Origin: a virus
Direction: 5' to 3' (one strand)
Length of the DNA: 52,003 nt
IMG/VR virus record: IMGVR_UViG_3300015360_000006
Location: 1-52,003 of that record
Below, piece after piece: positions 1 through 52,003 of the stretch (the stretch's first letter is position 1; each line of letters starts with the position of its first letter). The notes beneath the pieces were generated by a model. It was given only the letters and a program-made list of their open reading frames with translations. It ran no database searches and was not told where the DNA came from. Both the position numbers and the translations under genes were made by a program.

Positions 1-123
1 ATGTTCGCCGCTTGTACGCTTGCATTCAACTTCGCGAACTCGGCCTTCAATGGGATGAGATCGCCGAACAATGGGACTGGAGTGCTAATGCCTAAGACCA
101 TTCACAAGGCTGCAATGGCAGCA
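1..123. repeat. Terminal direct repeat, first copy
   Basis: Bases 1-123 are identical to bases 51881-52003. The repeat starts inside the sigma-54 activator gene and runs into the next gene, so it interrupts coding sequence arbitrarily. That is what a circular assembly with a leftover end overlap looks like, and gives a unit genome of about 51,880 bp. A true packaged terminal repeat is possible but less likely, because nothing marks its borders. The last 32 codons of the activator gene also appear here, ending at position 95. Confidence 0.95.
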
Positions 124-684
124 CATTCTATCAGCGCCGCCGGACACAACGGCTACAACGCACGCGATGCCGCGGCACTGACGCGACTGGCGGCGCGATG
201 GCGCGCGAACAAGCAGAAGCCAATGCTTATCTCGGGTGAGACCTTTATGGTTACGCCTAGGTCCATGCAGATTTATTTGTACCGTGCGCGGTCGTACGTT
301 CGAGACAACCTGAATAACTATCCAGCGGATCTCATCACACTTACTGAGATGATGACATTCAAATTGGTGAAAGGTGATGTCATTATCTATGTTGCACCGC
401 GCAACAGATTGTCAGTCATTGCGGACACCACTGTGAGTGCCTTGGGCAAGGCAACAGGTCACGACTACAACGCCAAGCAATTGTTTGTGCACTGGATCAC
501 AAAGCCACACGATGCCGGCGAGTACCTAGACATCCCGGGCGATTACTCGCCCGACGATTTCACTTGGTTCGCCGATCAGGCGAGAGAGTACCGCGGCATT
601 ATCCACATCGTACAAGATGCTCAGAACCTTAGGGTTATCTGGGATAGCGAAAGAGTAGGAGGGTCAGATGAAAGTCCTTGGTAA
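88..684 (+). CDS. Hypothetical protein downstream of the sigma-54 activator
   Basis: This 198-residue protein is not recognised. The start at 88 is preferred because it overlaps the activator stop (at 95, equivalent to 51975) in an ATGCCTAA arrangement, which suggests translational coupling. An open frame upstream of it merely reads the activator gene in another frame. Residues about 20-65 are rich in Arg, Ala and Leu (for example ALTRLAARWRANKQK) and could form a small helical or HTH-like unit, followed by a mixed alpha/beta region with hydrophobic strands such as DVIIYVAP. Because the activator ATPase lacks a DNA-binding domain and this gene is coupled to it, it is a candidate partner, but that is only inference from position. 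Confidence 0.8.
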   Translation: MPKTIHKAAMAAHSISAAGHNGYNARDAAALTRLAARWRANKQKPMLISGETFMVTPRSMQIYLYRARSYVRDNLNNYPADLITLTEMMTFKLVKGDVIIYVAPRNRLSVIADTTVSALGKATGHDYNAKQLFVHWITKPHDAGEYLDIPGDYSPDDFTWFADQAREYRGIIHIVQDAQNLRVIWDSERVGGSDESPW

Positions 685-1840: not shown

Positions 1841-2671
1841 ATGTCATTCTTATCTAGAAAAACAACGGGGCCCGCTGACACGGAATTGTCGGCGGCCGGC
1901 GCCAACATGATGGCGACCGCGATGCCAGCCGTCGCCGCCTCACCACAACCTGCCTCGCACGGAATCTTTCTGCTGCCACTCAGTGCAAAGACTGGTGCAA
2001 GGCCAGTGGCAAACATCATTGTCGTGGCCGAGAGCGGCCATGGCAAAACCACATCGCTTGAGAATCTTGACTGGGCCAGCGGCAAGATTGCGTTCATCGA
2101 TACTGAGCTTAAGGGATTTGATTGGCAGCACAAGATCCCCGAAGACTGTTACTTCAAGGCAACGTCCGGCGAGAACTGCTTGGCCATCATGCGCCACGTG
2201 GAGAGCAATCCGAAGTTTGAGATTGCAGTCGTTGACTCGTTCACGGACTACGGCATCACTGCAAATGAGGATTGCAAGTCTAAGGCTGCGGGTTACGAAG
2301 CGTATAAGCTGAACACGACTGCCATTGTCAAGTTCCTCAAAGCCGCGCGCTCTTCACGTGTGCGCTGGATTGTGCTGGCAGTGCCGGAGTTGCTTACGAT
2401 GGAGTCGACGGGCAACACATCAGGCGTGGTGATCAAGCGCGCATCTGTGATGGGTCGCGAGATGGAGGGCAAGGTCGAGGCAGCATTTGCCTACGCGGTC
2501 TACATCAAGATTGTTTCCGAGCCCGGCAAGCGGAACCAATACTTCTTCGTGCTGCAATCGGATGGGAAGTCGCAGGCTAAGATCCCGCGCGGTGTGACGG
2601 AGGCGCTTCAAATTCCGTCCGATATGAACGGGCTTCTCAAGCTCATTGAAAAGTCTGAGGCTAAGGTTTAG
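1841..2671 (+). CDS. Sak4-like P-loop ATPase (single-strand annealing/recombination)
   Basis: This 276-residue RecA-fold ATPase has a Walker A motif AESGHGKTTS at about residues 66-75, a short Walker B strand IAVVDSF at about 130-136, and a following hydrophobic strand WIVLAVPE. Size, motifs and position between a Cas4-like nuclease and an SSB-like gene fit the phage Sak4/AAA-ATPase family, which binds single-stranded DNA and promotes annealing. The first 55 residues are Ala/Pro-rich and low in complexity. The start is preceded by an A/T-rich leader (AACAAATTAATATTGAT) rather than a clear Shine-Dalgarno. A generic phage AAA ATPase is the alternative. Confidence 0.82.
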   Translation: MSFLSRKTTGPADTELSAAGANMMATAMPAVAASPQPASHGIFLLPLSAKTGARPVANIIVVAESGHGKTTSLENLDWASGKIAFIDTELKGFDWQHKIPEDCYFKATSGENCLAIMRHVESNPKFEIAVVDSFTDYGITANEDCKSKAAGYEAYKLNTTAIVKFLKAARSSRVRWIVLAVPELLTMESTGNTSGVVIKRASVMGREMEGKVEAAFAYAVYIKIVSEPGKRNQYFFVLQSDGKSQAKIPRGVTEALQIPSDMNGLLKLIEKSEAKV

Positions 2672-2729: not shown

Positions 2730-4196
2730 ATGAATACAGCATTGACACAAAAATTAGGGCAGACGTTAGTCTTGTCGCCGCAACTTCAACAGTCGCTGGC
2801 GGTCCTTGCGGCACCCGTACTGGAGTTGCGCGCGTTAGTCTCGAAAGAGTTAGAAAGCAATCCACTGCTCGAGTCGGTCAGCGATGTCGAGGAATCTGTG
2901 GAGGCGCGCGAGACTCGCGAAGATATGGAGGCCGCCATGGCCGATCCGCACGAGCCGCCGTTGGATGTGCAGTACGACCCGGCGAAGGAACCTGCGGCCG
3001 AAGACTCTGACTTCGACAAGGAGTTGCGCAGCTTATTAGAACTTGACCGCGACCTGTACGATTCACAATCGCTAGGCTCACTGAACACTTCATCGGATGC
3101 CGACGAGGAGCGCAGGCAATTCATGCTTGACTCGGCCAAGGCACCGCACACTTTGCAAGAGGAACTTGAGCAGCAGGTTCAAGGTATGCTCAATCTGACA
3201 TACGACGCTCGAGACGAGGCAATGGTATTTACACAGAACATTGATGAGCGCGGGTACTTGAATGTCCCATCAGATTTGTTCACTGAACATTTCATCGTGA
3301 GCATGCAGATGGTGCTTGAACCGCCGGGCATTGGCGCACGTAGCTTGCGCGAATCATTGAGGATTCAAACGATGCGCCATGCAAATCCCAACACGTTAGC
3401 GCTGTCTATCTTGGATTGGCACTTTGAGTTATTAAGTAAGCGCAAGTTTAATACAATTGCGGAGATTCTTGGTCTGGATTATGACGAGGTGTGCGATGCG
3501 TGCGCGTGGATTGCCAAGTTAAATCCCTATCCGGCGGCGCAATTCTACAACGCTGACAGCTCAGTTGTGACGCCAGAGCTTGATGTCGTTGCCGTCGCTG
3601 GTGTCATGGAAGTTCACCAACGCTCGGATTACTTACCCAATCTGCGCATAAGCAGTGGCGTCGCGCGCTTGGTAACTCATGCGGCGACCGACGCGACGAC
3701 GCGTGACTACATTCGCGAGAAGATCAGAGCGGGTAAGTTCTTCATCCGTAGTATTCATCAGCGACAGAATACAATTCTCCGCGTGGCAACTGAAATTGTA
3801 CGGCGGCAACATAATTTCTTTGCAAGTGGCAACGTCCTTGAATTACTACCGCTGACCATGTCGCAAGTTGCCGATGCCGTCGGCGTGCACGAGACCACCG
3901 TGAGCCGTGCGGTTTCCGGTAAGTACATGAGCACACCGCATGGAGTTCTTGAGTTGCGTTACTTCTTCTCATGCGGTGTGGCGAACGCGAGCGGAGTCGA
4001 CACGTCGAATCGCTCAGTCAAGTTGATGCTGGTGGAGATCATCGCGGGCGAGGACAAGAAGAATCCTTACTCGGATGAAGCCTTGGTTGCAGTATTGAAC
4101 TCCCGCGGCATGTGCATCGCCCGGCGCACGGCGGCCAAGTATCGCGCAGAGCATAACATTCTGCCGCGTCACTTGCGTGTAATTCATGGCACGTAG
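2730..4196 (+). CDS. rpoN: RNA polymerase sigma-54 factor (RpoN), phage-encoded
   Basis: This 488-residue protein is a full-length sigma-54. Region I is at residues 1-50 (LSPQLQQSLAVL, ending LESNPLLE), followed by an acidic region II, then the core-binding region with NIDERGYLNVP and LEPPGIGARSLRESL, an HTH (about 375-400, VADAVGVHETTVSRAVSGKY), the GVLELRYFFS segment, and an RpoN box ARRTAAKYRA at about 464-473 (family consensus ARRTVAKYRE). Sigma-54 directs host core polymerase to -24/-12 promoters and needs an AAA+ activator to open them. A cognate activator gene lies in the same operon about 3.5 kb upstream across the circle junction. No domain is missing, so function is likely. An A-rich leader, not a Shine-Dalgarno, precedes the ATG. 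Confidence 0.97.
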   Translation: MNTALTQKLGQTLVLSPQLQQSLAVLAAPVLELRALVSKELESNPLLESVSDVEESVEARETREDMEAAMADPHEPPLDVQYDPAKEPAAEDSDFDKELRSLLELDRDLYDSQSLGSLNTSSDADEERRQFMLDSAKAPHTLQEELEQQVQGMLNLTYDARDEAMVFTQNIDERGYLNVPSDLFTEHFIVSMQMVLEPPGIGARSLRESLRIQTMRHANPNTLALSILDWHFELLSKRKFNTIAEILGLDYDEVCDACAWIAKLNPYPAAQFYNADSSVVTPELDVVAVAGVMEVHQRSDYLPNLRISSGVARLVTHAATDATTRDYIREKIRAGKFFIRSIHQRQNTILRVATEIVRRQHNFFASGNVLELLPLTMSQVADAVGVHETTVSRAVSGKYMSTPHGVLELRYFFSCGVANASGVDTSNRSVKLMLVEIIAGEDKKNPYSDEALVAVLNSRGMCIARRTAAKYRAEHNILPRHLRVIHGT

Positions 4197-4202
4197 GCAG
4201 CT
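4187..4202 (+). promoter_or_regulatory. Candidate sigma-54 promoter after rpoN, driving the SSB gene
   Basis: The element TGGCACGTAGGCAGCT has a perfect TGGCACG -24 box and GC exactly 10 bases after GG (consensus TGGCACG-N4-TTGCW). It overlaps the last codons of rpoN and points at the SSB-like gene, giving a predicted start near 4213 and a leader of about 280 nt. The -12 box reads CAGCT rather than TTGCA, as in two other candidates in this genome. Confidence 0.7.
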
Positions 4203-4995: not shown

Positions 4996-5018
4996 GCCAG
5001 CAAGACACAGACAGTATG

Positions 5019-5056
5019 AGGCGCGAGCTCCACAAGGGCTCGCGCCTTTCTCTTTT
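5019..5056 (+). terminator. Intrinsic terminator after the SSB-like gene
   Basis: A perfect 9-bp GC-rich stem (GGCGCGAGC 5020-5028 with GCTCGCGCC 5038-5046) is followed by TTTCTCTTTT. It lies 25 nt after the SSB stop and just before the polymerase gene. An ATG at 5016 in frame with the polymerase gene falls in this hairpin and is unlikely to be its start. Confidence 0.85.
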
Positions 5057-5060
5057 CAAT

Positions 5061-6416
5061 ATGAATGTACATTATGTTTTAGGACATAGGTCGCGTTATG
5101 ATTTAGTTAACAAGGCATTCTCAGGACCTGCTCAAGTCTTTCTTGAAGACATATCGCTAGAGCTTAGCATTACGCACACTGTGTCTTGGTCCGACATGCC
5201 TATACCGCAGGTTAGTCATTGTGTTCTGGCCGGACCCAAAGCTTGGGCGCTGTGCGGATTCACTGAACGCGATGTGGGTGTGGTGATTGAGCGTGGCAAT
5301 GTAACTTACGTGTGCTCTTACCATCCGCAAGACGCCGTAGACGTGCGCAAGATTGACGAGTTGTTCACCGGGGTTGAAGACAGCGAACCCGACGAGGACG
5401 ATGCAGGTTCGGCCAAAGATGGCGCAACCACTCAGCGTATTAATTATCGCTTCTGGATACAGATCCACACTGAGAAACTGATTGCGCCCATACAGAAGCA
5501 TCGTCCGTTTAGCATGCGGATGGAGTCGTTGGTAAATTGTGGGTTTCCAAACTCAACGTATCTTTACCTAGACATTGAGACACACCCGCCTACCAATACA
5601 TTGCAGTGCATTACTGTAGGGTTTGACGAAGGCGCGGTGTTCTCCATTACGATCTACAATTACAAAGGAGAGTTGCAACCCGACGCACTGGACAGCATGG
5701 TCTGGCTGGTGCGAGCGCTCAAACGCTACACAGTTGTGATCCACAACGCCGCGTTCGACTTGCCATTCTTGGCAATGTTCCATGGCTTGGCGCACGGAGA
5801 TAAGATACACGATACCATGCTTATCTGGCATCGCATGTTTCCCGAGGCTGACAAGTCTTTGGCCCATGTGATTCAAGCGCTTACCAATCTACCTTATCAC
5901 AAGGATGAGGCTGGCACATTCTGTCCTCACAACCACAAGCAGCAGCAGACTTTGCTGGTGTACAATGCGCGTGATGTGTACGCATTGCGCGAGGTTCACA
6001 AGATGATGTTGCCCTTGAGTGCCAGCGCCCAATCAGTTTGCGATAGCATCCCTGATTATCTTTTCACTGGCTTGCTCGGGTTCTACATCAATGATCGCAG
6101 GTTGGCGCATCATCGGAAGCGCTTGTCTGTCGCCGCCCAGCAGCTTGAACGCATCATGCGCTTGCTAGTTGGTGTCAGTGATTTCAATCCTAACTCCGGC
6201 AAGCAGGTACAGATTTGGTTGTACGACAAACTCAAATACAAACCTCCTACGCTTACCGACAGCGGCGCGCCGGCGACGGATGCTACTACGTTGTACAAGT
6301 TACTGATCACACATCCTAAGAATGTGGCTTTGCAAGTGCTGCTTGAGATCAAGGAAAATTCCAAGCGACTATCGTCCATCAATTATAAACCATACACTCA
6401 ACTCAACGAGCGATGA
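5061..6416 (+). CDS. Family A DNA polymerase, N-terminal half: 3'-5' exonuclease plus thumb
   Basis: This 451-residue protein carries a DnaQ-like proofreading domain: Exo I LYLDIETH near residue 171, Exo II VIHNAAFDLPFL near 228 and Exo III YNARDVYAL near 301. After it, FNPNSGKQVQIWLYDKL near residue 375 matches the start of the family A polymerase domain, and the protein stops just after SKRLSSINY, the usual KLxSTY position. The palm and fingers are encoded separately at 11066-12052. The start at 5061 is chosen because the upstream in-frame ATG lies in a terminator stem. Residues 1-160 are unlike known domains. Its TGA overlaps the ligase ATG. Confidence 0.9.
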   Translation: MNVHYVLGHRSRYDLVNKAFSGPAQVFLEDISLELSITHTVSWSDMPIPQVSHCVLAGPKAWALCGFTERDVGVVIERGNVTYVCSYHPQDAVDVRKIDELFTGVEDSEPDEDDAGSAKDGATTQRINYRFWIQIHTEKLIAPIQKHRPFSMRMESLVNCGFPNSTYLYLDIETHPPTNTLQCITVGFDEGAVFSITIYNYKGELQPDALDSMVWLVRALKRYTVVIHNAAFDLPFLAMFHGLAHGDKIHDTMLIWHRMFPEADKSLAHVIQALTNLPYHKDEAGTFCPHNHKQQQTLLVYNARDVYALREVHKMMLPLSASAQSVCDSIPDYLFTGLLGFYINDRRLAHHRKRLSVAAQQLERIMRLLVGVSDFNPNSGKQVQIWLYDKLKYKPPTLTDSGAPATDATTLYKLLITHPKNVALQVLLEIKENSKRLSSINYKPYTQLNER

Positions 6417-10891: not shown

Positions 10892-11066
10892 GCAAATGAG
10901 TTTGTTCGGAGGAGATGACAATCTACCTCCGGGTGTAACGCAGAAGGATCTGGACAACCACGGCGACGGGAAGGTTACCTGCACAGGTTGTCTTCGCTCG
11001 CGCTATCAGCACGATATGTTCGACGGACTGTGCCGCTGGTGTATCCCAATGTCAGAAAGGGACTAA
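10884..11066 (+). CDS. 60-residue zinc-ribbon protein
   Basis: This small protein starts with MNEQMSLFGGDDNLPPG and has two Cys pairs, CTGC near residue 34 and CRWC near residue 51, typical of a treble-clef or zinc ribbon. An N-terminal SLFGG-type motif resembles sliding-clamp-binding peptides, though none is proven. It overlaps the MazG gene at its start, and its TAA overlaps the ATG of the polymerase C-half (TAATG), linking it to polymerase expression. Confidence 0.72.
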   Translation: MNEQMSLFGGDDNLPPGVTQKDLDNHGDGKVTCTGCLRSRYQHDMFDGLCRWCIPMSERD

Positions 11067-12052
11067 TGCACACTAATAGATTAAGGGCCATCACATGTTA
11101 CAAGCAAGCTGGCACACGCAGCTTCCGCCTCAGCGCGACGCAGTACTTCAATACCTACGGACTTAATCTACAAAATCCGGACAAAGAAACTCTGGATCAT
11201 CTGGAAGCCCCGGCCGGCCACGTCATAGTGCAAGCAGATCAAAGCGGCGCCGAAGCTTTGATTGTAGCTTATGACTCCGCGCCGGGGCGTTATCGTGCTC
11301 TGTTTGAAAACGGAGTCAAGCCGCACACTTACCTAGCGATGCAAATCTTTGCATCCTATTTTGGTCTGGCCGCCGACTCTCCGTTCTTGAACGAAGAAGT
11401 GGCAGAGTTTACTAAGCTGCCAAACTGGGCCGAGTTGCACAAGCGCATCAAAAAGTCGGGCAAGCCTTACGACATTGGCAAGCGGACGGCACACGGATCT
11501 TCTTACAAGATGGGTCCAATCACATTCCGTAATGCAAACATAAAGCAATCAAAGGGCAAGCTTGTATTGTCCATTGCAGAATGTCGTGCATTTCTGGATA
11601 TGTTCAAGCGTTTGTTTCCGGAAGTAGTTGCTTGGCAGGACAGTGTTGAAACTACACTTAGACGCGAGCGAAAGCTTGTCAACCACTTCGGCTACACAAG
11701 ATTGTTTACACGCGAGCTTACTGATTCTTATGTTCGCGAGGCAATCTCTTGGCGCCCGCAGTCCACGGTGGGTTGCATAACCCATCAAGCCATTCGTCGC
11801 GCACGCGTAGCGGGATATGCCACGTGCTCCAACAAGCATGATTCGGCCGCCGTAATGGTAACTTGCGAAGATGCAAGCACGGCAGCTGCTTTCATGCAGA
11901 ACGCTATGAGGGTAAAACTTCAAGGCCACGATTGCGAATTCACCATGAACTCAGAAGTACAGATTGGCTCGAATTGGGGAGCATACGATGCTGACACCAA
12001 TCCAACTGGTATGAGGGACTCTAATGAGTGGATCAAGGCATCCAATGAGTAA
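11066..12052 (+). CDS. Family A DNA polymerase, C-terminal half: palm and fingers
   Basis: This 328-residue protein contains the catalytic core of a family A polymerase: the template-contact segment ending GLNLQN (near residue 35), motif A VQADQSGAEALIVAY (near 55), motif B KRTAHGSSYKMG (about 138-150) and motif C KHDSAAV (near 257). Motif C has Ser where most enzymes have Glu. The protein starts where a family A polymerase would continue after the KLxSTY element that ends the 5061-6416 gene, so the two together make one normal polymerase. The start is set by the TAATG overlap with the preceding gene. It overlaps the next gene by ATGAGTAA. Confidence 0.9.
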   Translation: MHTNRLRAITCYKQAGTRSFRLSATQYFNTYGLNLQNPDKETLDHLEAPAGHVIVQADQSGAEALIVAYDSAPGRYRALFENGVKPHTYLAMQIFASYFGLAADSPFLNEEVAEFTKLPNWAELHKRIKKSGKPYDIGKRTAHGSSYKMGPITFRNANIKQSKGKLVLSIAECRAFLDMFKRLFPEVVAWQDSVETTLRRERKLVNHFGYTRLFTRELTDSYVREAISWRPQSTVGCITHQAIRRARVAGYATCSNKHDSAAVMVTCEDASTAAAFMQNAMRVKLQGHDCEFTMNSEVQIGSNWGAYDADTNPTGMRDSNEWIKASNE

Positions 12053-12269
12053 CCAACGAATTAAGCTGTCCATCACTACCGACTACTACGCCTTCATTGC
12101 GCGTTACGGATTGAAGCCCAATGGACTCTTAGTTTCCAGCAACGCCGAGCTAGCTCTCAATTCATTGGGACTAAAGCCCGGTGACATTTACATCGGCATG
12201 CGCATCGTCTCTGCGGAATTCGCAGAGGGTGATACAATCGTGGCTCTCCTTTCTACGAGTAATGAGTAA
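12045..12269 (+). CDS. Small hypothetical protein
   Basis: This 74-residue protein is predicted to be a compact alpha/beta fold. It is flanked on both sides by identical ATGAGTAA stop/start overlaps, which strongly supports this start and translational coupling between the polymerase half and the following P-loop gene. No family recognised. Confidence 0.72.
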   Translation: MSNQRIKLSITTDYYAFIARYGLKPNGLLVSSNAELALNSLGLKPGDIYIGMRIVSAEFAEGDTIVALLSTSNE

Positions 12270-13449
12270 CTTGGATCTATGGAAACTCTACACAAAACGA
12301 CTTCATGCACCGCGGCAATTTCTTGATGCAGCATTTTACTACACGATAGGCGCCGCACTTGAGCGCCGTGTATGGCTGGGCGCCGGCGGTGGCACAGTGT
12401 ATCCGAATCAATACATACTATTTTGCGCAGACGCGGGCGTCGGCAAAGGCTTGGCAACCGGTGCCGCCGAGCATGTCCTAGATTCTCTTGTCGATCCAAA
12501 GAATCCAACGCGTCCATTCATTACCAAAGGTCCGGACTCTGGATCTTATGAGGCACTGATTCATCGTCTGGCAGATTCGACCAGAAGCACTCGCTACATG
12601 AATGGCACTGTTGTAATGCCCTACATGTATGCGAGTTTGCGTTTGGAGCTAGACGAGCTAATGAGCTTCTTCCATGTAGAAGCTAACAACGCTGTTAAGT
12701 TCTTCTGCTCGATGTGGAGTGGCGTAGATTTTGACCGCGACACATTAAGCCGCGGCCACAAGCCACTCAGCCATCCGCTGCTTAACTTTCTGGCGGGCAC
12801 AACGCCGCAAGATATGAAGAAGCTACAACGATGCGACATCATGGGCACAGGCTTCGATCGTCGCATCATAATCATTTACGCAGACAAGAACGAGTTCGAG
12901 CAATTCTTGGTTCGAGACTTCTTGCCTGAGGAATTAGAAGCCGGATTGAAACTATGCAATCATGTGGAAAGGTTGAGCAAGGTATGCGGTAAACTAACAT
13001 TCTCCAGCGAAGCCAAGATTCTCGGCGAGCAGACTTGGATGAACTTGGCCAAGCGCAACGTGAATAATCACAAGTCGCTGCAATCATACAATGCCAACAA
13101 ATCACCTCAGTGGCAGAAGTATGCGATTGCAATGCACTTTGCAGAAGGTGATCCGGAAGAGCGGTTGCGCACGCCGATCGCAGCCAGCACATTAGAGCAA
13201 GCCATTACCAAGCTTCAATCGTACGAGCTATTCCGGCACTTCGCGTACGACCAGACGGACATCAATGAGTTGGCTATCGTGGCCCGCGAACTTAATAAGT
13301 GGTTGTCACGTGAAGGATCAAAAACACAGGCAGAGATTGCAAAAGCGTACTACGGTGCAGTAACACTGAAGCAACTCGACGAGGTGCTTCAATACTTGAT
13401 ACTGTCAGGCGGGATCAGTCAAAAGGAAGAAACATTCACAGCAATATAA
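12262..13449 (+). CDS. DUF3987-like P-loop NTPase, probable replicative helicase or primase partner
   Basis: This 395-residue protein resembles DUF3987-type phage proteins. It has a P-loop FCADAGVGKGLATG (about residues 56-69; the Ser/Thr after GK is Gly), an acidic Walker B-like LRLELDELMSFF (about 129-140), and then the FFCSMWSG and LNFLAGTTPQD segments typical of the family. Its place after the polymerase half suits a replication helicase role. The C-terminal 90 residues look like a winged helix. No separate primase is recognised elsewhere. Start set by the ATGAGTAA overlap. Confidence 0.72.
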   Translation: MSNLDLWKLYTKRLHAPRQFLDAAFYYTIGAALERRVWLGAGGGTVYPNQYILFCADAGVGKGLATGAAEHVLDSLVDPKNPTRPFITKGPDSGSYEALIHRLADSTRSTRYMNGTVVMPYMYASLRLELDELMSFFHVEANNAVKFFCSMWSGVDFDRDTLSRGHKPLSHPLLNFLAGTTPQDMKKLQRCDIMGTGFDRRIIIIYADKNEFEQFLVRDFLPEELEAGLKLCNHVERLSKVCGKLTFSSEAKILGEQTWMNLAKRNVNNHKSLQSYNANKSPQWQKYAIAMHFAEGDPEERLRTPIAASTLEQAITKLQSYELFRHFAYDQTDINELAIVARELNKWLSREGSKTQAEIAKAYYGAVTLKQLDEVLQYLILSGGISQKEETFTAI

Positions 13450-21578: not shown

Positions 21579-22013
21579 TTAGTTCTGGTTAAAATTTTGT
21601 TGGTTGTGCCTACGCTTTAGAACTCCATTACGATAATAGCTCAACGCATAGAACGGATACTTATCCTTCCACTCATTAAGCATTATGTACATAAAATCTT
21701 TTGTTCCGACAATTCCAATTAGATGAACTGCCCGATCTTCGTGCCTGACTTCCCACGTTGCGACACTTGTTATCGCAAACGGAGGTGCACTGTAAATGAA
21801 TCTGATCTGCCCTGAAAAAGATGCCTCTATCAGGTGCGCTTTAAGTTGTACATCGTTGAGCTGATTGTAAGCTTTCTTATCATTAGCTTTGATAAACGCC
21901 ACACAACCTTCGATCAGCGCCTTAGGTGAGGTAACGATCTCGTACTGTACCTCCTGAATTAACGAATTCCCATGTACACCGAAGGGGTCCAGCAGCGACT
22001 CTGAGATAGCCAT
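21579..22013 (-). CDS. Hypothetical protein, GNAT-like in context
   Basis: This 144-residue protein has alternating strands and helices (RFIYSAPPFAITSVATWEV, then HLIGIVGTKDFMYIMLNEW, ending YPFYALSYYRNGVLKRR) that recall the small acetyltransferase-fold virion proteins placed next to internal virion genes in T7-like phages. No catalytic signature is certain. The ATG at 22013 is used; a TTG lies three codons upstream. It overlaps the tail-phosphoesterase gene by 92 bp, unusually long, so the true start may be internal. Confidence 0.6.
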   Translation of the reverse strand: MAISESLLDPFGVHGNSLIQEVQYEIVTSPKALIEGCVAFIKANDKKAYNQLNDVQLKAHLIEASFSGQIRFIYSAPPFAITSVATWEVRHEDRAVHLIGIVGTKDFMYIMLNEWKDKYPFYALSYYRNGVLKRRHNQQNFNQN

Positions 22014-24354
22014 ATTCAGCAATTTGTTTCATTGATCCATCTGCTAGGACCGTGCTAATGGAGTGTAATGCTTGACCGCCAGATCCCACAATAAAGATTG
22101 GCAGATGCTTGTTAAGTCGTTCGTACAGGTGCGCGTGACCGCAAACCAGCGCAGACGCTCCGGCGTCGGCAATCGCTTCAGTAAGCGGTTGCATTGTGGT
22201 AATGCCCGGATAATAGGCCGCCGATGAAGTATAGGGCGGATGATGCCAGACTACAATCTTGTTGCGTGCGGTAGAGGCGCGCAGATCGGCCAACAATTCC
22301 CTAGCTTGGGATGACTCAAGATATGTCGCACCGTCCGAATTGCGCGGATCTGTCTGGGCGCCACTGGTTTTAATACCCGTGTTGAACAGAAAGATCTCCG
22401 TGTGCGCATCAAGCATTACAGTTGAATAACGCTCTGGCGTTTGGCGGACATACTGAAAGAATGGCGCACCATCACTGGTATCTAGGTCATGATTACCCGG
22501 TGCGGCATACAACTTACCGGCAAGCTTCTCTGTATTCCAGTAAGCTTTGAATCGCAAGTCAAGTTCGGCCTGCGTGCCCGAGTTGTAAATGTGATCGCCT
22601 GCGCCCACGTAAGCGTCTACATTACGTTCGGCGCGCATCGCCATATTCACAAGTGTGCGATTTGTATTCACCACACCGTCATCTGCGAAGAACAAAATCT
22701 TCAATGGATCGATAGTCTCGCCTGAACCGTAGGACGATCCTTCATTGCTTACGCCGGGGTAAGTTTCCACTTCAAATCTGATTGTCGAAAGTCTAGCGGA
22801 ACCCGACCAACGAATGACAGGCGTGGTGCGATATGCGCGTTCGGGAACACCGAAAGTAAAGTTCAGCGTCGTAGCGTCGGGAACCAAAGTGCCCGGAGTA
22901 ATTGGCCGCGCAGACGGATCCTCGACGACGTTGGCGGCCTTGAGTAATTCGGTTTGCGACGAGATCAATTTGCGATCTGCATAGATGTCTACCGTGATGT
23001 GACCTGCCGTGTCGCCATTCAACATTGCGATCGACACGCCGCGCACACTGGTCAAGACATCGGCATCTGTAAGTGTTACATCCTGTAAAGTTATCTGCTG
23101 CTCACCATAGTCGCCAGCAAAAGCCTTGAACAGGAAGCCATCGTCTGTGCGGAAGTAGAGTTCGTTGACAGTTGCGGAGATAACTGTGGCAAACTCTACG
23201 ATTTTGCTCACACCGGGCCAGATGTCCACTGCGACAAACACTTCAAGTGTTTGATCCCACCAAACAACACCGGGTCCATACTTGGTGTCTACCGCAAATC
23301 CGGTGTAGTTGTCAAATTGACAGGTCGCACCAGTGGTTTGCAGTCCATTGGTTGTAAGATTCTGGATCTGCTTGTTGAGTGGTGAGTTGCGGCCTTGAAA
23401 CTTCAACTGCTGCACACCATTGTAGGTGCGAATACCGCCGGGATACACCACGGCCGTGTCACCGTTGATGTCAGTGATAGATTCGGGACCAAAGGCGCCC
23501 ACGTCAAACAAAGGTTGACGAGTGTGCACAGGTTCACCTGCGATCAGGATGTCAAAGACAGGAATAACTAGCGTGGAAGCTTTGGCAGAAGTAACCAAAA
23601 ATGCTCCGTCGGCCGCGGCAGGTTGCACGATCGCAGTGATTGGATCATAGCCTGTGTGGAACCGGAGCGCGGGCGCCCCAAATTCAGGTTCAGTGCTGCC
23701 TGCCTTGTCGCCGGCATCATTTACCAGCAGGACAAAATCCAGCGGCCGACCGGACACCGAATGCGCAATCTGAGTAAGCCTGCCATCTGAATCCTTAATG
23801 GCAACATACAGCTTACTGCCAATCATCTTAGGCAGATCGCAAACCGGAACATACTCACGATTAGTTGGCGTCCACTCAGACCAATTATTCGTGGCACGCA
23901 CCGAGCCATCAGGAAAGATAACAAGCGGCTGAGAGATGCCGTCTGTACAGATAACCGCCGACCGGGTCGAGCCGACAGGTGAACTGAAATTCAAAGATGC
24001 GTTTGACAGGACACGCTTGAAATTTACAGAACTTCCCGGAATTGCTTCAACCCTTACACGCTCTGCGGTAGGAGAGAGGCTTCCACCGACGGCGCGTGTC
24101 CAAGATGTTCCGGACGCGGGACGATACCAAGGTTCGCCTTCGACAAAGATTAGGAGATTTGAATCGAATGCTGACAAGTTTTGGATCGTCCCGGCCGGAA
24201 AAGTTAGACGCAGAGGCGAGCGCACAGGCTCAACTACATTCAATCGCACACGAGCATTCGTCAGCAATTGAAACGTGTTATCAAAATCAGACTTCTCCGA
24301 AGAGAACTGAGTTTGAATGCCTCCGAGAAAGTTAGTCTTCGATTTGATTACCAT
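21922..24354 (-). CDS. Tail (nozzle/tubular B-like) protein fused to a metallophosphoesterase
   Basis: This 810-residue protein has two parts. Residues 1 to about 540 look like a podoviral tail nozzle/tubular protein: MVIKSKTNFLGGIQTQFSS and beta-rich propeller-like repeats, with GGIRTYNGVQQLKFQGRN. From about 548 to 800 all metallophosphoesterase motifs occur in order: FFADDGVV (metal ligand Asp), GAGDHIY (near 585), APGNHDLD (near 619), VVWHHPPY (near 705) and CGHAHLYERL (near 738), the last closest to purple-acid-phosphatase-like enzymes. The active-site residues are intact. The enzyme domain would be displayed at the tail tip, perhaps acting on a phosphorylated surface polymer. That use is inferred. 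Confidence 0.87.
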   Translation of the reverse strand: MVIKSKTNFLGGIQTQFSSEKSDFDNTFQLLTNARVRLNVVEPVRSPLRLTFPAGTIQNLSAFDSNLLIFVEGEPWYRPASGTSWTRAVGGSLSPTAERVRVEAIPGSSVNFKRVLSNASLNFSSPVGSTRSAVICTDGISQPLVIFPDGSVRATNNWSEWTPTNREYVPVCDLPKMIGSKLYVAIKDSDGRLTQIAHSVSGRPLDFVLLVNDAGDKAGSTEPEFGAPALRFHTGYDPITAIVQPAAADGAFLVTSAKASTLVIPVFDILIAGEPVHTRQPLFDVGAFGPESITDINGDTAVVYPGGIRTYNGVQQLKFQGRNSPLNKQIQNLTTNGLQTTGATCQFDNYTGFAVDTKYGPGVVWWDQTLEVFVAVDIWPGVSKIVEFATVISATVNELYFRTDDGFLFKAFAGDYGEQQITLQDVTLTDADVLTSVRGVSIAMLNGDTAGHITVDIYADRKLISSQTELLKAANVVEDPSARPITPGTLVPDATTLNFTFGVPERAYRTTPVIRWSGSARLSTIRFEVETYPGVSNEGSSYGSGETIDPLKILFFADDGVVNTNRTLVNMAMRAERNVDAYVGAGDHIYNSGTQAELDLRFKAYWNTEKLAGKLYAAPGNHDLDTSDGAPFFQYVRQTPERYSTVMLDAHTEIFLFNTGIKTSGAQTDPRNSDGATYLESSQARELLADLRASTARNKIVVWHHPPYTSSAAYYPGITTMQPLTEAIADAGASALVCGHAHLYERLNKHLPIFIVGSGGQALHSISTVLADGSMKQIAEYGYLRVAAGPLRCTWEFVNSGGTVRDRYLT

Positions 24355-26503: not shown

Positions 26504-27037
26504 TTAAGAGGCGCAGGTAGTTATCATCGTTGCGAAGTCTGTGTAAACAAATGGAGGCACACAAACTACAGGGGAAATCTGAGAGCCAGTTACGTCGCAC
26601 GACGTAGTCGGCTGTTCCATGATACCGATTGGAATTGTCCAATCGGAGGAAAGTGTAGAGGGATTAGAAGCGTTGGTCCAGATTTCAATTACAGTTCCAG
26701 CCGGAACTGTCTCGCCAACATAGACAGGCAAAGGCAAGATTTCCGTGGTGCCCTGCCAAAGCTTTACGCGAAACGTAACACCACTGACTACCCAGCGCAA
26801 TACGGCTGCAAATGTGCTGTAAGATCTAGCCAAAGGATAACGAATAGTCCAATGCGTTGCGATGGGCACAGTGTAAATTGCCACGATCTGCGAAGCACCC
26901 GCACCAGAGGGATAGGCATAAGAGAAAGCCGGAATAAGCAGCGTCTGATTCTTACGCTTGGCCGCGCAAGCCTTAATAGCCCCACGAGGCGCGAGCATCG
27001 TGGAGCTTTTGAATAGTAGTCCGTAAGGCTTAGCCAT
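26504..27037 (-). CDS. Beta-rich virion protein candidate
   Basis: This 177-residue protein has a predicted jelly-roll-like run of strands (TFRVKLWQGTTEILPLPVYV, PAGTVIEIWT) resembling small fibre or decoration proteins. Its start overlaps the end of the methyltransferase-glycosyltransferase gene by 8 bp, so the two are co-translated. Family not recognised. Confidence 0.62.
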   Translation of the reverse strand: MAKPYGLLFKSSTMLAPRGAIKACAAKRKNQTLLIPAFSYAYPSGAGASQIVAIYTVPIATHWTIRYPLARSYSTFAAVLRWVVSGVTFRVKLWQGTTEILPLPVYVGETVPAGTVIEIWTNASNPSTLSSDWTIPIGIMEQPTTSCDVTGSQISPVVCVPPFVYTDFATMITTCAS

Positions 27038-34217: not shown

Positions 34218-35510
34218 TTACCAGCTGAGCGCGGAGTTCGGATCGCGGCGATAGATGATAGGAATCACGTTGTAAGGGTTCGCAGGCATAACGCCGTGAA
34301 CGGTGGAAGCGATCAACTTGATCAGCTCGTCCCACGTGTTGGCTTCCACATTGCCAGCGGAATCCTTGATCAGGAAATTCCGCGTAGCCTGAACCTGACC
34401 ATTCCAGTTCAACGCATTGAATTTGTTTGCCGTGGAGCCTTGGCCGGTGAAGCTGGCAGGAGGAGGTCCAACGTCAATGGTCTGAATCGGATTCCAACCA
34501 ATCAGGTAAGCAACACTGACAGGAGCCTTGCGGTACGCTTCAGTGAAACGGGTGATGTAACCCTTATCACCGGAGTAGTTCGCGGCATTGTACTCCTGCT
34601 CGACCTGAATGTCAGGCATCGTACCATCTTCGTTGTAACGCTCGGGGTACGGCGTAGAGCGGAAGACGATGTTATCCGAGATGGCTCCAGAGAATCGGCT
34701 GTTGAGCAGATTCATCGCAAGGGGCCGAACGGCATTGACCGTCGGATCGTAGGTCAGGCGAGTGAGCAACTCATTGTCGCCCGCGAGAATCCACTTACCT
34801 TTGACCAACTCATTGTCGCCTGGGTTGCCCTTCTTCCAGCCGTCGCTGGGCGCAATACCCAGACTGTTCTGGGCAAGATCACGAATCGCACAGATGGTGC
34901 GAAAGTCCAGCGTACCCGTGCCGAGCTCCTGGATCTTGGCTGCCATCCAGTTAGTATCCTTGACACTGGCGGTGGGATCGCTGGGATCACCAAACGGCAC
35001 AGACTCATCATATGCCGAATCGGCGGAACCGCCGCGGCCCACGATGTAGACGTGGCGAGCAAGATTGAACAACTGATCGCGAATGAAGAAGTCGTTGCAG
35101 ATGGCAATCTGCGTAGCGAGATCCTTCATCTGGAACATGATGTTCTTGCGGAAGTCCCGGAAATCAGGCAGCCAGTGAATCTGCTGAGACATGTACTTGT
35201 GCCGCTTGACACGCGCCTGATTCTGCAGCTCACGATTGCGGTACGTGTTGATCTTCGCAACCTCAGTGATGTTGTTGGGGCGATGGGTCTGCGAAGTGAC
35301 AGGCGAGGACTGGGGCATCACACCGATGATGATGTCGCCATTGTTCTGCTTGAACTTGAGGGAGGAGAACATAGTCCCCCAGGTGGAGACATACTCGTAG
35401 GTGCTCTTCTCCTGATAAGCCATCTGAACAGGAAGCCGAGCAAACGCTGCGGTGTCCTGAACAGAATAGTTGACGTCCGTTGGAGGCGTGAGTCCGATCG
35501 TAGTAGGCAT
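34218..35510 (-). CDS. Major capsid protein
   Basis: This 430-residue protein sits where the major capsid protein is expected, after portal and scaffold. It has the length and composition of podoviral HK97-fold capsids, with an N-arm PTTIGLTPPTDVNYSVQDTA and a conserved DGTMPDIQVEQEYNAANYSG stretch. Codon use is biased to C/G third positions as in highly expressed genes. It has a long structured leader and a candidate sigma-54 promoter (35656-35671). Assignment is by gene order, size and codon use, not a single motif. Confidence 0.85.
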   Translation of the reverse strand: MPTTIGLTPPTDVNYSVQDTAAFARLPVQMAYQEKSTYEYVSTWGTMFSSLKFKQNNGDIIIGVMPQSSPVTSQTHRPNNITEVAKINTYRNRELQNQARVKRHKYMSQQIHWLPDFRDFRKNIMFQMKDLATQIAICNDFFIRDQLFNLARHVYIVGRGGSADSAYDESVPFGDPSDPTASVKDTNWMAAKIQELGTGTLDFRTICAIRDLAQNSLGIAPSDGWKKGNPGDNELVKGKWILAGDNELLTRLTYDPTVNAVRPLAMNLLNSRFSGAISDNIVFRSTPYPERYNEDGTMPDIQVEQEYNAANYSGDKGYITRFTEAYRKAPVSVAYLIGWNPIQTIDVGPPPASFTGQGSTANKFNALNWNGQVQATRNFLIKDSAGNVEANTWDELIKLIASTVHGVMPANPYNVIPIIYRRDPNSALSW

Positions 35511-35655: not shown

Positions 35656-35671
35656 TGCTGGAAGTATGCCA
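35656..35671 (-). promoter_or_regulatory. Candidate sigma-54 promoter of the capsid gene
   Basis: Read on the minus strand: TGGCATACTTCCAGCA. TGGCA and the GG-N10-GC spacing match the -24/-12 consensus; the -12 box is CAGCA. It overlaps the end of the scaffold gene, and the predicted start near 35645 leaves a leader of about 135 nt before the capsid ATG. Confidence 0.6.
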
Positions 35672-47176: not shown

Positions 47177-47192
47177 TGGCACGCACATAGCT
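47177..47192 (+). promoter_or_regulatory. Candidate sigma-54 promoter of the gene at 47266
   Basis: TGGCACGCACATAGCT has a perfect TGGCACG -24 box and GC exactly 10 bases after GG; the -12 box is TAGCT. Predicted start about 47203, giving a 63-nt leader that holds the 12-bp palindrome TTCAAGCTTGAA and an ACAAC/GTTGT stem. Confidence 0.75.
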
Positions 47193-48972: not shown

Positions 48973-51117
48973 ATGCCCATCACGTTAACGAAGAAGGCAC
49001 TGGGCCTACAAGAAATGGAGAAGACACGGATTGCAAATAGCACCCGTGCAACCGCACTAGCTCAGTGCACTAGCGCCAAGGGGCGCATTGCTCTGGGAAA
49101 GGTTAAGGATTGGGCCGGACTTAGCGTCCAACTCAACTACGAAATCTCAGCGGGACTAACCTCCCTGCCATGGGAGCGTGAGAACTGGGAGATGTGCCTC
49201 GACTGGTTCGTGTCTAGCGCCGTCGCGCGCAGCACGGCGCTGTTCGACAGCAAGGCCATCGAGTCGGCCGCAGTTCTCGAAACTGTGGTGAAGAACAATG
49301 TCGCCTTTGCTAAAGTTCAACTGCGCCCGCAGCAGAAGAAAGCGCTGGACCAAATCATCGCAGCATACGAGGCCGGCAAGCGGGCCGTGCTGGTGGCAAT
49401 GGGCACTGGCCGCGGCAAGACTGTGGTCTTCGGCGCGTTCATCGAGTGGCTCAAGCGGCGCGGCACGGTCGACGGGGATAACTTCCTCTTGCCCAAGGCG
49501 TGCATCTTTACCAAGAAGCCTGCCGTCTGGTCGACGCGGTGGAAGATTGAAAACTTCTTCGACCTACATTGCACGGGTGACGTGCAAGATAAGATGGACG
49601 CAGAGGTTGGCGTGTTCCATTACAATGCACTCTCCGCCAAGAAGCACGCGTCCAAGTGGAAGCGTGATCCGAAGACTGGCGAGCTACTGCTTAACTCAGT
49701 AGAGATGTTCGGGAATGCATTCACATTCCCTGTGTCGGCACTCGTCGAGCCACTGAATCTTGTGGTGTTCGACGAATGTCACATGCTCAAGAAGCGCAGT
49801 GCCAAATGCACCAAGCGTGCGCGCGGCATCATGGCTAGCATAGCTGCCAAGAAGTGCTTCTATATTTTCACGTCTGCCACGCCGGCCGTGTGTCTGAATG
49901 ACACGATGCTGTTCAACATCGCTGCCGAATTGGCAACCGATGAGAACATGGCTACGTTTCTTGGCCGCTTCGGTGGCGATTCAAGTCAGGCAGATCCTAT
50001 TGCAATGCGCAAGTACAATGATTACTTGGGCATCCATATGGTCAAGCCGCCCGAAGACAAGCTGCCTTATAAGGTTACCAATCGCGTAGACTTGGTAGAC
50101 TTTCCATGCGCTGCCACCAAGGAGAAGTACATGGCGGCGGAGGCGGATTACATCCGTGCGGTTGAATCCTCTGGCGGCGTGGCTGGCGACACGTCTATGT
50201 CGCAGTTCATTATCTACCGACGATGCGCGGAGGTCTTGATGGCGCCTGTCTACGCAGACTACATGTGCCGCGCACGTGCTCGAGGCATCGCGCCCGTACT
50301 CGCCGTGTGCTTCATCGACACGGTCACTTCGGTGAGCGCCATCCTTGCGAAGCGTGGATGGAAACGCGAAGAGCTGTCCTATATCTGGGGCGGCGAGAAG
50401 ATCATCGAGCAGTCGGAGTGCTACACTACTGCCGAGATGGCTAAGATTCTTAGCCGTGCCGACGAGGAGATCCTCAAGTATACGGAGGCATTCGGTGAGC
50501 CTCCCGAAGATGACTACTTCTTCCTGACCCGCAAGGAGAAAGCGAAGTTCACGCGCACTAGGGCATACAACAAGGCTCGCTTGCGGCGCGGCGAGACTAA
50601 GCTTGAGCAGATCGAGCGCACGGAGATGCTCAAGGACTACAAGCTTGACAAGCAGACTGACCTCGAGCGTGAGGTGGAACTCGACAAGTTCCTTAAAGAT
50701 GTAACACTGGGTTGCATCTTCACGTTCGCCAGCGGTGGCACTGGCATCGATCTGGACAATCAGATCAAGGGTGGCCGGCCGCGCGAGTTGATCGCCACTG
50801 TCTGCTACTGGGCAGAGGAGTTCTTGCAGGCGTTCGGGCGGTGCGCCCGTGTCATGACGCAGTCAGATGTGTCGCACATCATCCTCATGTTCAAGGATAC
50901 ACTGCCTGTGCAGCATGTCCTTCCGCGATTGCTGCCCAAGTTGCGCAGCATCAAGATTCTTACGGGCATCGAGGGAGATCTCGAAGATGTTATGGCTACC
51001 GGGATTCGCAAGGGCCACAAGGCTGAGATCATCAAGGAATCCAAGGAGGTAGTGCAAGATGGTATCATCACCGACGAGGACGACGGCGATGACGACGATG
51101 ACGAAGACGAGAAATAA
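48973..51117 (+). CDS. SF2 DEAH-type helicase
   Basis: This 714-residue protein has the SF2 helicase motifs in order: motif I MGTGRGKT near residue 143, motif II VVFDECHM near 267, motif III FTSATP near 301, and motif V-VI ASGGTGIDLDN and QAFGRCARV near residues 585-625. Homologues unwind DNA or restructure branched intermediates in phage replication and recombination. The N-terminal 110 residues are a separate domain and the C-terminus is a long acidic tail (DDGDDDDDEDEK). It is directly followed by the sigma-54 activator gene. Confidence 0.92.
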   Translation: MPITLTKKALGLQEMEKTRIANSTRATALAQCTSAKGRIALGKVKDWAGLSVQLNYEISAGLTSLPWERENWEMCLDWFVSSAVARSTALFDSKAIESAAVLETVVKNNVAFAKVQLRPQQKKALDQIIAAYEAGKRAVLVAMGTGRGKTVVFGAFIEWLKRRGTVDGDNFLLPKACIFTKKPAVWSTRWKIENFFDLHCTGDVQDKMDAEVGVFHYNALSAKKHASKWKRDPKTGELLLNSVEMFGNAFTFPVSALVEPLNLVVFDECHMLKKRSAKCTKRARGIMASIAAKKCFYIFTSATPAVCLNDTMLFNIAAELATDENMATFLGRFGGDSSQADPIAMRKYNDYLGIHMVKPPEDKLPYKVTNRVDLVDFPCAATKEKYMAAEADYIRAVESSGGVAGDTSMSQFIIYRRCAEVLMAPVYADYMCRARARGIAPVLAVCFIDTVTSVSAILAKRGWKREELSYIWGGEKIIEQSECYTTAEMAKILSRADEEILKYTEAFGEPPEDDYFFLTRKEKAKFTRTRAYNKARLRRGETKLEQIERTEMLKDYKLDKQTDLEREVELDKFLKDVTLGCIFTFASGGTGIDLDNQIKGGRPRELIATVCYWAEEFLQAFGRCARVMTQSDVSHIILMFKDTLPVQHVLPRLLPKLRSIKILTGIEGDLEDVMATGIRKGHKAEIIKESKEVVQDGIITDEDDGDDDDDEDEK

Positions 51118-51126
51118 ACATATCAT

Positions 51127-51975
51127 ATGCCCGTAACAATTAAGACTGGACACAAGCTGCCCTATGCAGTAGCAAGCGAGGCGTTCAAGACACGAGCGCG
51201 CATGACACGGGACGGCAGACTCGTTGAAAACAGTTACATCACGGACGATCCGTTCACGCTCAGCCAGCTTAGCTTGATTGATCAGGTGCGTGATCTCAAC
51301 ATGTCGGTCCTGATAACAGGTGAGTCGGGCACCGGCAAAGATATTATGGCCAAGCGACTCGGCCATCGGCACACGCTGGATGCTAGCGGGTTGCACACTA
51401 TGGCCAAGTACATCTCCGTCAACTGCGCAGGCATCACGGATTCACTGTTCGAGTCCGAGATGTTTGGCCACATCAAGGGATCATTCACCGGTGCACTGCG
51501 CGATCGCGCTGGATTCTTTCAAGCGGCGCACGGCGGCACGTTATTCCTTGACGAGATCGGCGATCTGCCTTTGCACCAGCAAGCTAAGTTGCTGCGTGTG
51601 CTAGAGAACAAAACGGTTACGCCAGTCGGCAGCACCGAGGAGATTCATGTGTCGCCTCGCATTGTGTGTGCTACCAACAAGAACTTAAGGCAAGCTATTA
51701 TTGCCGGAGAGTTTCGAGAGGACCTCTATTACCGCATCGCACAAGTTGTGGTATCAACCATCCCGTTACGCATGAGGTCGACGGATGTTGTGCTCATTGC
51801 CAACGAGATCATTGCGACGAATGACTGGACGCCGTTGGCTTCCAACGAGACCATTCCTACATGGGCCTACTCGCGCGGCAATGTTCGCCGCTTGTACGCT
51901 TGCATTCAACTTCGCGAACTCGGCCTTCAATGGGATGAGATCGCCGAACAATGGGACTGGAGTGCTAATGCCTAA
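51127..51975 (+). CDS. Minimal sigma-54 activator (bEBP AAA+ ATPase), phage-encoded
   Basis: This 282-residue protein is essentially just the AAA+ domain of a sigma-54 activator. It has Walker A GESGTGKD at residues 65-72, the sigma-54-contacting loop as GSFTGA at 118-123 (usual GAFTGA), Walker B LFLDEIGD near 139-146, sensor I ATNKNL near 183, the arginine-finger segment FREDLYYR near 198 and sensor II RGNVRRL near 250. There is no N-terminal regulatory domain and almost no C-terminal domain, so no HTH: activation would be constitutive and may not need an enhancer, or a partner supplies DNA binding. The cognate RpoN is in the same operon. The last 95 bases are repeated at the window start. 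Confidence 0.93.
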   Translation: MPVTIKTGHKLPYAVASEAFKTRARMTRDGRLVENSYITDDPFTLSQLSLIDQVRDLNMSVLITGESGTGKDIMAKRLGHRHTLDASGLHTMAKYISVNCAGITDSLFESEMFGHIKGSFTGALRDRAGFFQAAHGGTLFLDEIGDLPLHQQAKLLRVLENKTVTPVGSTEEIHVSPRIVCATNKNLRQAIIAGEFREDLYYRIAQVVVSTIPLRMRSTDVVLIANEIIATNDWTPLASNETIPTWAYSRGNVRRLYACIQLRELGLQWDEIAEQWDWSANA

Positions 51976-52003
51976 GACCATTCACAAGGCTGCAATGGCA
52001 GCA
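51881..52003. repeat. Terminal direct repeat, second copy
   Basis: Identical to bases 1-123. It contains the end of the sigma-54 activator gene and the first 36 bases of the following gene (start at 51968, equivalent to 88). See the first copy. Confidence 0.95.

Follow-up and report, generated by a model that had tools for sequence, protein, structure and literature searches.

Phages of the family represented by the window, the whole 52,003-nucleotide stretch of DNA analysed here (IMG/VR record IMGVR_UViG_3300015360_000006), very probably drive a sigma-54 middle and late programme with a natural sigma-54 activator (bEBP) that is reduced to its AAA+ domain and would act from solution without host signals or enhancers. 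For their late transcription, phages are known to use small phage sigma factors, co-activators, antitermination or RNA polymerases of their own, and in T4 (gp55/gp45) and lambda (Q) an earlier-made phage protein redirects the host RNA polymerase to the late genes. In contrast to these systems, the mechanism predicted here is ATP-driven and uses sigma-54. A review divides the bEBPs into five groups, of which group 4 (PspF, HrpR/S) has no regulatory domain and group 5 (FlgR, CtcC) has no DNA-binding domain, and no group is without both (PMC7175178); the phage proteins would form a sixth. A full-text search turned up no account of bEBPs encoded by phages or of late promoters of the sigma-54 type and, since it covered open-licence papers only, is weak evidence of novelty; sigma-54 timing of phage late genes is apparently undescribed so far. 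If true, a family-wide sigma-54 programme would be a new strategy for phage late transcription, a bEBP stripped to its motor would prove able to work as a regulator in nature, and the evolution of sigma-54 specificity could be studied with small activators and the promoters that match them.

Protein architecture

51127..51975, + strand: AAA+-only sigma-54 activator (bEBP), 282 aa, with neither a regulatory domain nor an HTH (Pfam, motifs and structural model)

The original prediction held that this protein has the full set of bEBP motifs including a GSFTGA loop, starts close to the AAA+ domain and stops just after sensor II, and it proposed profile searches for Sigma54_activat and HTH domains. 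In the Pfam search, Sigma54_activat (PF00158) covers residues 44-208 with E = 3e-58, far above the curated cut-off, and no HTH family was reported. All catalytic motifs were found: Walker A GESGTGK (65-71), the switch asparagine N99, the L1 loop GSFTGA (118-123), Walker B LFLDEIGD (D142, E143), sensor I CATN, the R fingers in FREDLYYR (R197, R203) and sensor II GNVR (R254). The ORF is thus as the prediction described it. In an AlphaFold2 model built on a 29-sequence alignment (pLDDT 87.7), residues 1-33 are mostly of low confidence and the AAA+ core is followed by the sensor-II helix (253-264) and thereafter just by short helices at 269-276 and 278-281. The best PDB matches of the model are the AAA+ domains of FleQ, FlrC, NtrC4, NtrC1 and PspF (best 3e-24, 42% identity). 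No close match was found in a viral protein structure library (best 2e-8, 18% identity), and the protein matches PHROG 7998, a family without assigned function.

The phage protein belongs with the bEBPs by its Sigma54_activat AAA+ domain, recognised by Pfam and by fold, by its GAFTGA-type L1 loop, Walker A and B motifs, R fingers and sensors I and II, and by the candidate sigma-54 promoters available as its targets. It has no C-terminal HTH of the kind that marks group 4 (PspF-like), as judged by Pfam, model and relatives, and no N-terminal response-regulator domain as in group 5 (FlgR/CtcC-like), the AAA+ domain beginning near residue 44. A mis-called C-terminus with an HTH beyond it had been named as the finding that would overturn the prediction. 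The same C-terminal stop is present in two relatives, L002 (99% identical) and L003 (57%), which indicates that the stop is real and that no HTH was missed, and in the next gene (88-684) Pfam recognises no HTH.

Compared with known systems, the phage activator shares with PspF and HrpR/S the absence of an N-terminal regulatory domain and an AAA+ core with a GAFTGA-type loop, and its fold matches PspF, but those proteins have a C-terminal enhancer-binding HTH that it does not have. With FlgR of Helicobacter, described as enhancer-independent in the title of a paper listed among the references of PMC9449129, and CtcC of Chlamydia it shares the absence of a DNA-binding domain, whereas both carry a response-regulator domain under a histidine kinase and the phage activator has none. 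The CtcC ATPase domain alone, without a signal, induces a sigma-54 regulon in Chlamydia (PMC7482065). Closest in domain content is DctD250, an AAA+-only fragment of DctD that activates sigma-54 promoters from solution without signal or enhancer (PMC3844500); DctD250 was engineered in the laboratory, whereas the phage activators are natural and family-wide.

Genomic setting and phage RpoN

1..123, no strand: left copy of the terminal direct repeat, identical to 51881-52003
51881..52003, no strand: right copy of the terminal direct repeat, identical to 1-123
48973..51117, + strand: helicase gene directly upstream of the activator (PF04851, 6e-12)
88..684, + strand: 198-aa ORF directly downstream of the activator over the circular junction; a homologue follows the activator in L003
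931..1833, + strand: PD-(D/E)XK nuclease between activator and rpoN (PF12705, 4e-18)
1841..2671, + strand: Sak4-like annealing protein adjoining rpoN (phrog_2872, 2e-14)
2730..4196, + strand: phage-encoded sigma-54 (RpoN), 488 aa (PF00309, 5e-13; PF04963, 4e-32; PF04552, 9e-51)
34218..35510, - strand: putative major capsid protein gene at the start of the structural block (gene order)

The 123-bp terminal direct repeat closes the record to a circle of 51,880 bp, on which the rightward gene order is helicase, activator, 198-aa ORF, 88-aa ORF, PD-(D/E)XK nuclease, Sak4-like gene and rpoN. Activator and rpoN had been placed in the same rightward operon; they do share a rightward run, but only across the circular junction, that is, because the record is circular. 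The 198-aa ORF has no Pfam match, HTH included.

The RpoN is full-length by Pfam, with the activator-interacting, core-binding and DNA-binding domains all present, and carries the RpoN box ARRTAAKYR and the HTH HETTVSRAV. Region I, the core-binding domain and the DNA-binding domain with its RpoN box place it in the sigma-54 family. It shares the three Pfam domains and the RpoN box with bacterial RpoN, from which it differs in being phage-encoded and in that the promoters of its clade favour NAGC over TTGC. It is approximately 32% identical to its best plasmid-borne bacterial homologues, and PHROGs returned no RpoN family match. Among the relatives examined, rpoN is restricted to the window's part of the tree, one 14-row clade. 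Twelve further contigs with rpoN were examined, and 11 of them also encode the activator; the remaining one is just 20 kb long. Across the family, however, the activator is not tied to a phage rpoN: in most relatives it occurs together with sigma-54 sites and without rpoN, which suggests that host sigma-54 is its usual partner.

The window encodes DNA polymerase A as two ORFs approximately 4.5 kb apart, 5016-6416 (exonuclease/N-terminal part) and 10988-12052 (polymerase part); it is likewise in two pieces in G003, G007, G008 and G012, and in one in G013, G015, G018 and G023. The structural-block protein at 21922-24354 has a C-terminal calcineurin-like phosphoesterase domain.

Distribution in the phage family

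A profile search of IMG/VR with the activator gave 49 loci, many of them HTH-less activators of 245-306 aa in divergent phages. Helicase and activator are common to all 11 compared contigs, and nuclease, terminase, portal, scaffold-like and putative capsid genes to 10 of the 11; this shared gene content argues for one broad phage family. The order terminase, portal, scaffold-like gene and putative capsid gene is conserved in 10 contigs, and it is this order by which 34218-35510 is putatively the capsid gene, no Pfam or PHROG match having been obtained for it.

Searching with the capsid protein gave 80 loci. The HTH-less activator is present in every tested family contig longer than 37 kb (48/48). 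It is missing from 18 of 72 contigs, every one of which is shorter than 37 kb and may be a fragment. Across the capsid-derived set the activator open frames span 230-332 aa, too short for an HTH-bearing bEBP. The GSFTGA/GAFTGA loop is kept in nearly all family members, with odd or degenerate L1 loops in a few relatives (L021, L058).

The relatives are metagenomic contigs, and a host search in a genome collection gave a single match, in an archaeal MAG, which is probably mis-binned. One contig binned as a Methanoregulaceae archaeon (L083, JACTVG010000014.1) carries the family's capsid gene and sigma-54-like sites and is probably a mis-binned phage contig; a control set that contained it was left out of the evidence. 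Matches of 30-45% identity in a phage collection were dropped as relatives, many being named glnG, atoC, prpR or zraR in bacterial-looking records and others being without the annotation needed to judge them. The human gut phage MT121960 (L082) has an HTH-less sigma-54-activator-like ORF at 11776-12687, possibly a separate case, and no convincing sigma-54 site within the 24 kb read.

Sigma-54 sites

47177..47192, + strand: sigma-54 promoter-like TGGCACG-N4-TAGCT before the operon through helicase and activator (16.6 bits)
4187..4202, + strand: sigma-54 promoter-like TGGCACG-N4-CAGCT at the rpoN end, ahead of the replication genes (14.8 bits)
35656..35671, - strand: sigma-54 promoter-like TGGCATA-N4-CAGCA upstream of the putative capsid gene (13.4 bits)

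The published sigma-54 consensus is TGGCAC-N5-7-TTGCT (PMC12316311), and we scored sites with a weight matrix written from the general consensus. How far the matrix tolerates A before the GC was decided once the first sites of the window were known, a choice that does not affect the spacing test. The window has 24 relaxed matches, three of them intergenic (47177, 4187 and 35671) and each oriented like the genes that follow it. A fourth flagged site, at 1643, was rejected as it lies inside the nuclease gene. The number of sites in the window is not above chance (3 good intergenic sites versus 2.4 expected), so the case for the window rests on where the sites lie. L003 has a site (3645) at the place matching 47177, the 4187 site is kept in L005 and L006 (95% identical), and all 10 phages compared have a site of correct spacing ahead of the homologous capsid gene. 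In the sister contig G002, sites precede the same helicase/activator operon and the capsid gene, and a third comes after ThyX.

In many other family genomes the counts are far over chance (G007, 13 versus 1.5 expected; G012, 10 versus 1.4). The capsid-upstream comparison covered 10 phages with capsid proteins 24-73% identical to that of the window. Ahead of the capsid gene the best score has a mean of 16.5 bits, compared with 4.7 when genes are picked at random from the same contigs; 0 of 20,000 random draws reach the capsid mean, and no other gene family shared by these phages has an outstanding upstream score. TGGC-N8-WGC occurs upstream of the capsid gene in 10/10 phages and other spacers, from 4 to 13, in 0-1; the GG-N10-GC spacing of these sites is exact in all 10 studied in detail. 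Of the 79 capsid loci in the wider set, 70 have a site of at least 13.5 bits, whereas the opposite strand has one at just 3. A second preferred position lies within approximately 70 bp behind the activator stop (22 of 34 loci), and the other 12 loci are without a sigma-54 site right behind the activator. A nested derived subclade (L130, L136, L140, L141, L143, L157, L159 and L160) has no site at the capsid gene; the two of its genomes that were read from end to end (G066, G069) retain the activator, with a site shortly after the gene.

The -12 element in the window's clade is mostly NAGC rather than TTGC, and the base before its GC is A:T 15:1 in RpoN-bearing phages versus 18:56 elsewhere. The sites concerned include 4187, 35671 and 47177 of the window and those of G027, G028 and G085. 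Two RpoN-less genomes with terminal repeats, G033 and G007, also show NAGC. As rpoN is confined to a single clade and NAGC also occurs in these two genomes, the link between RpoN and NAGC, strong by count, is confounded by phylogeny and is put forward tentatively.

Mechanism and alternative explanations

The architecture of the activator and its conservation, together with the sequence, spacing and position of the promoters, point to the following mechanism. Once made, the activator would assemble as a ring and meet sigma-54-RNA polymerase closed complexes from solution, without an enhancer. ATP hydrolysis, acting through the GSFTGA loop, would then remodel these complexes and open the phage sigma-54 promoters. 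The window promoters appear to head the replication block, the capsid/structural block and the helicase/activator operon, the last of which would give feedback; sigma-54 would thereby be a middle/late switch that the phage controls by making the activator, whose production would itself be the signal. Members without RpoN would rely on host sigma-54, and the window's clade would also bring its own. The earlier reading of a free, unregulated activator for phage sigma-54 promoters gains support from sites at conserved positions and from the HTH-less activator throughout the family.

Without an HTH, an activator is expected to work on whatever sigma-54 closed complex it meets, and in Salmonella DctD250 turned on the greater part of the sigma-54 regulon (PMC3844500); the main role of the phage activator could thus be to hijack host sigma-54 promoters (nitrogen, motility, envelope and stress genes) and reshape host physiology, with the phage sites secondary. 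We consider this quite unlikely, given that the phage promoters are kept at fixed places, chiefly the capsid gene, which argues for selection for phage targets, and that the window's clade has its own RpoN. As a side effect, such hijacking could still occur, by analogy with the promiscuous AAA+-only DctD250. We judge it just as improbable that the activator, neither free nor unregulated, depends on a second phage protein, supplied in trans, for DNA binding or regulation. PspF, which is also without a regulatory domain, is under the control of PspA, and PMC7175178 lists it among the bEBPs regulated through protein binding in trans; the 198-aa ORF follows the activator in the window and in L003. 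This ORF, however, has no recognised DNA-binding domain and did not cluster with the genes found after the activator elsewhere in the family.

Helicase and replication genes adjoin the activator, and the L1 loops of two relatives are degenerate, as might be expected of a replication or remodelling ATPase merely descended from a bEBP. That explanation is hardly credible in view of the sigma-54-contacting GSFTGA/GAFTGA loop kept in nearly all members and of the consensus sigma-54 promoters that co-occur with the activator. Building on the preferred reading of an AAA+-only bEBP acting from solution, a broader one, to which we would give somewhat less than an even chance, is that a sigma-54 middle/late switch evolved in this phage family with the AAA+-only activator as a sixth natural bEBP architecture, and that the window's clade added a phage sigma-54 with NAGC-favouring promoters, giving a partly orthogonal system that needs neither sigma-54 nor a signal from the host, only its core RNA polymerase.

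Capsid-gene leader hairpins

The capsid-gene leaders of relatives contain small hairpins, singly or in pairs, in which the loop AAGGGCAU is invariant and the stems covary (GTTG/CAAC, GACG/CGTC, TCTA/TAGA and others). Examples are found in L120, L112, L107 and L103, within 420 bp before position 1501, and in G058 at 26580 and 26608; the window has none, and no Rfam match was obtained in the sources tried. By the stem rule the hairpin is present in 54 of 79 leaders versus 0 of 79 coding controls. When copies are selected by the loop alone, 47 of the 52 distinct ones form at least 3 of 4 inner pairs; G-C, C-G, T-A and A-T all occur among the three innermost pairs. The hairpin is possibly an undescribed phage late-leader RNA element.
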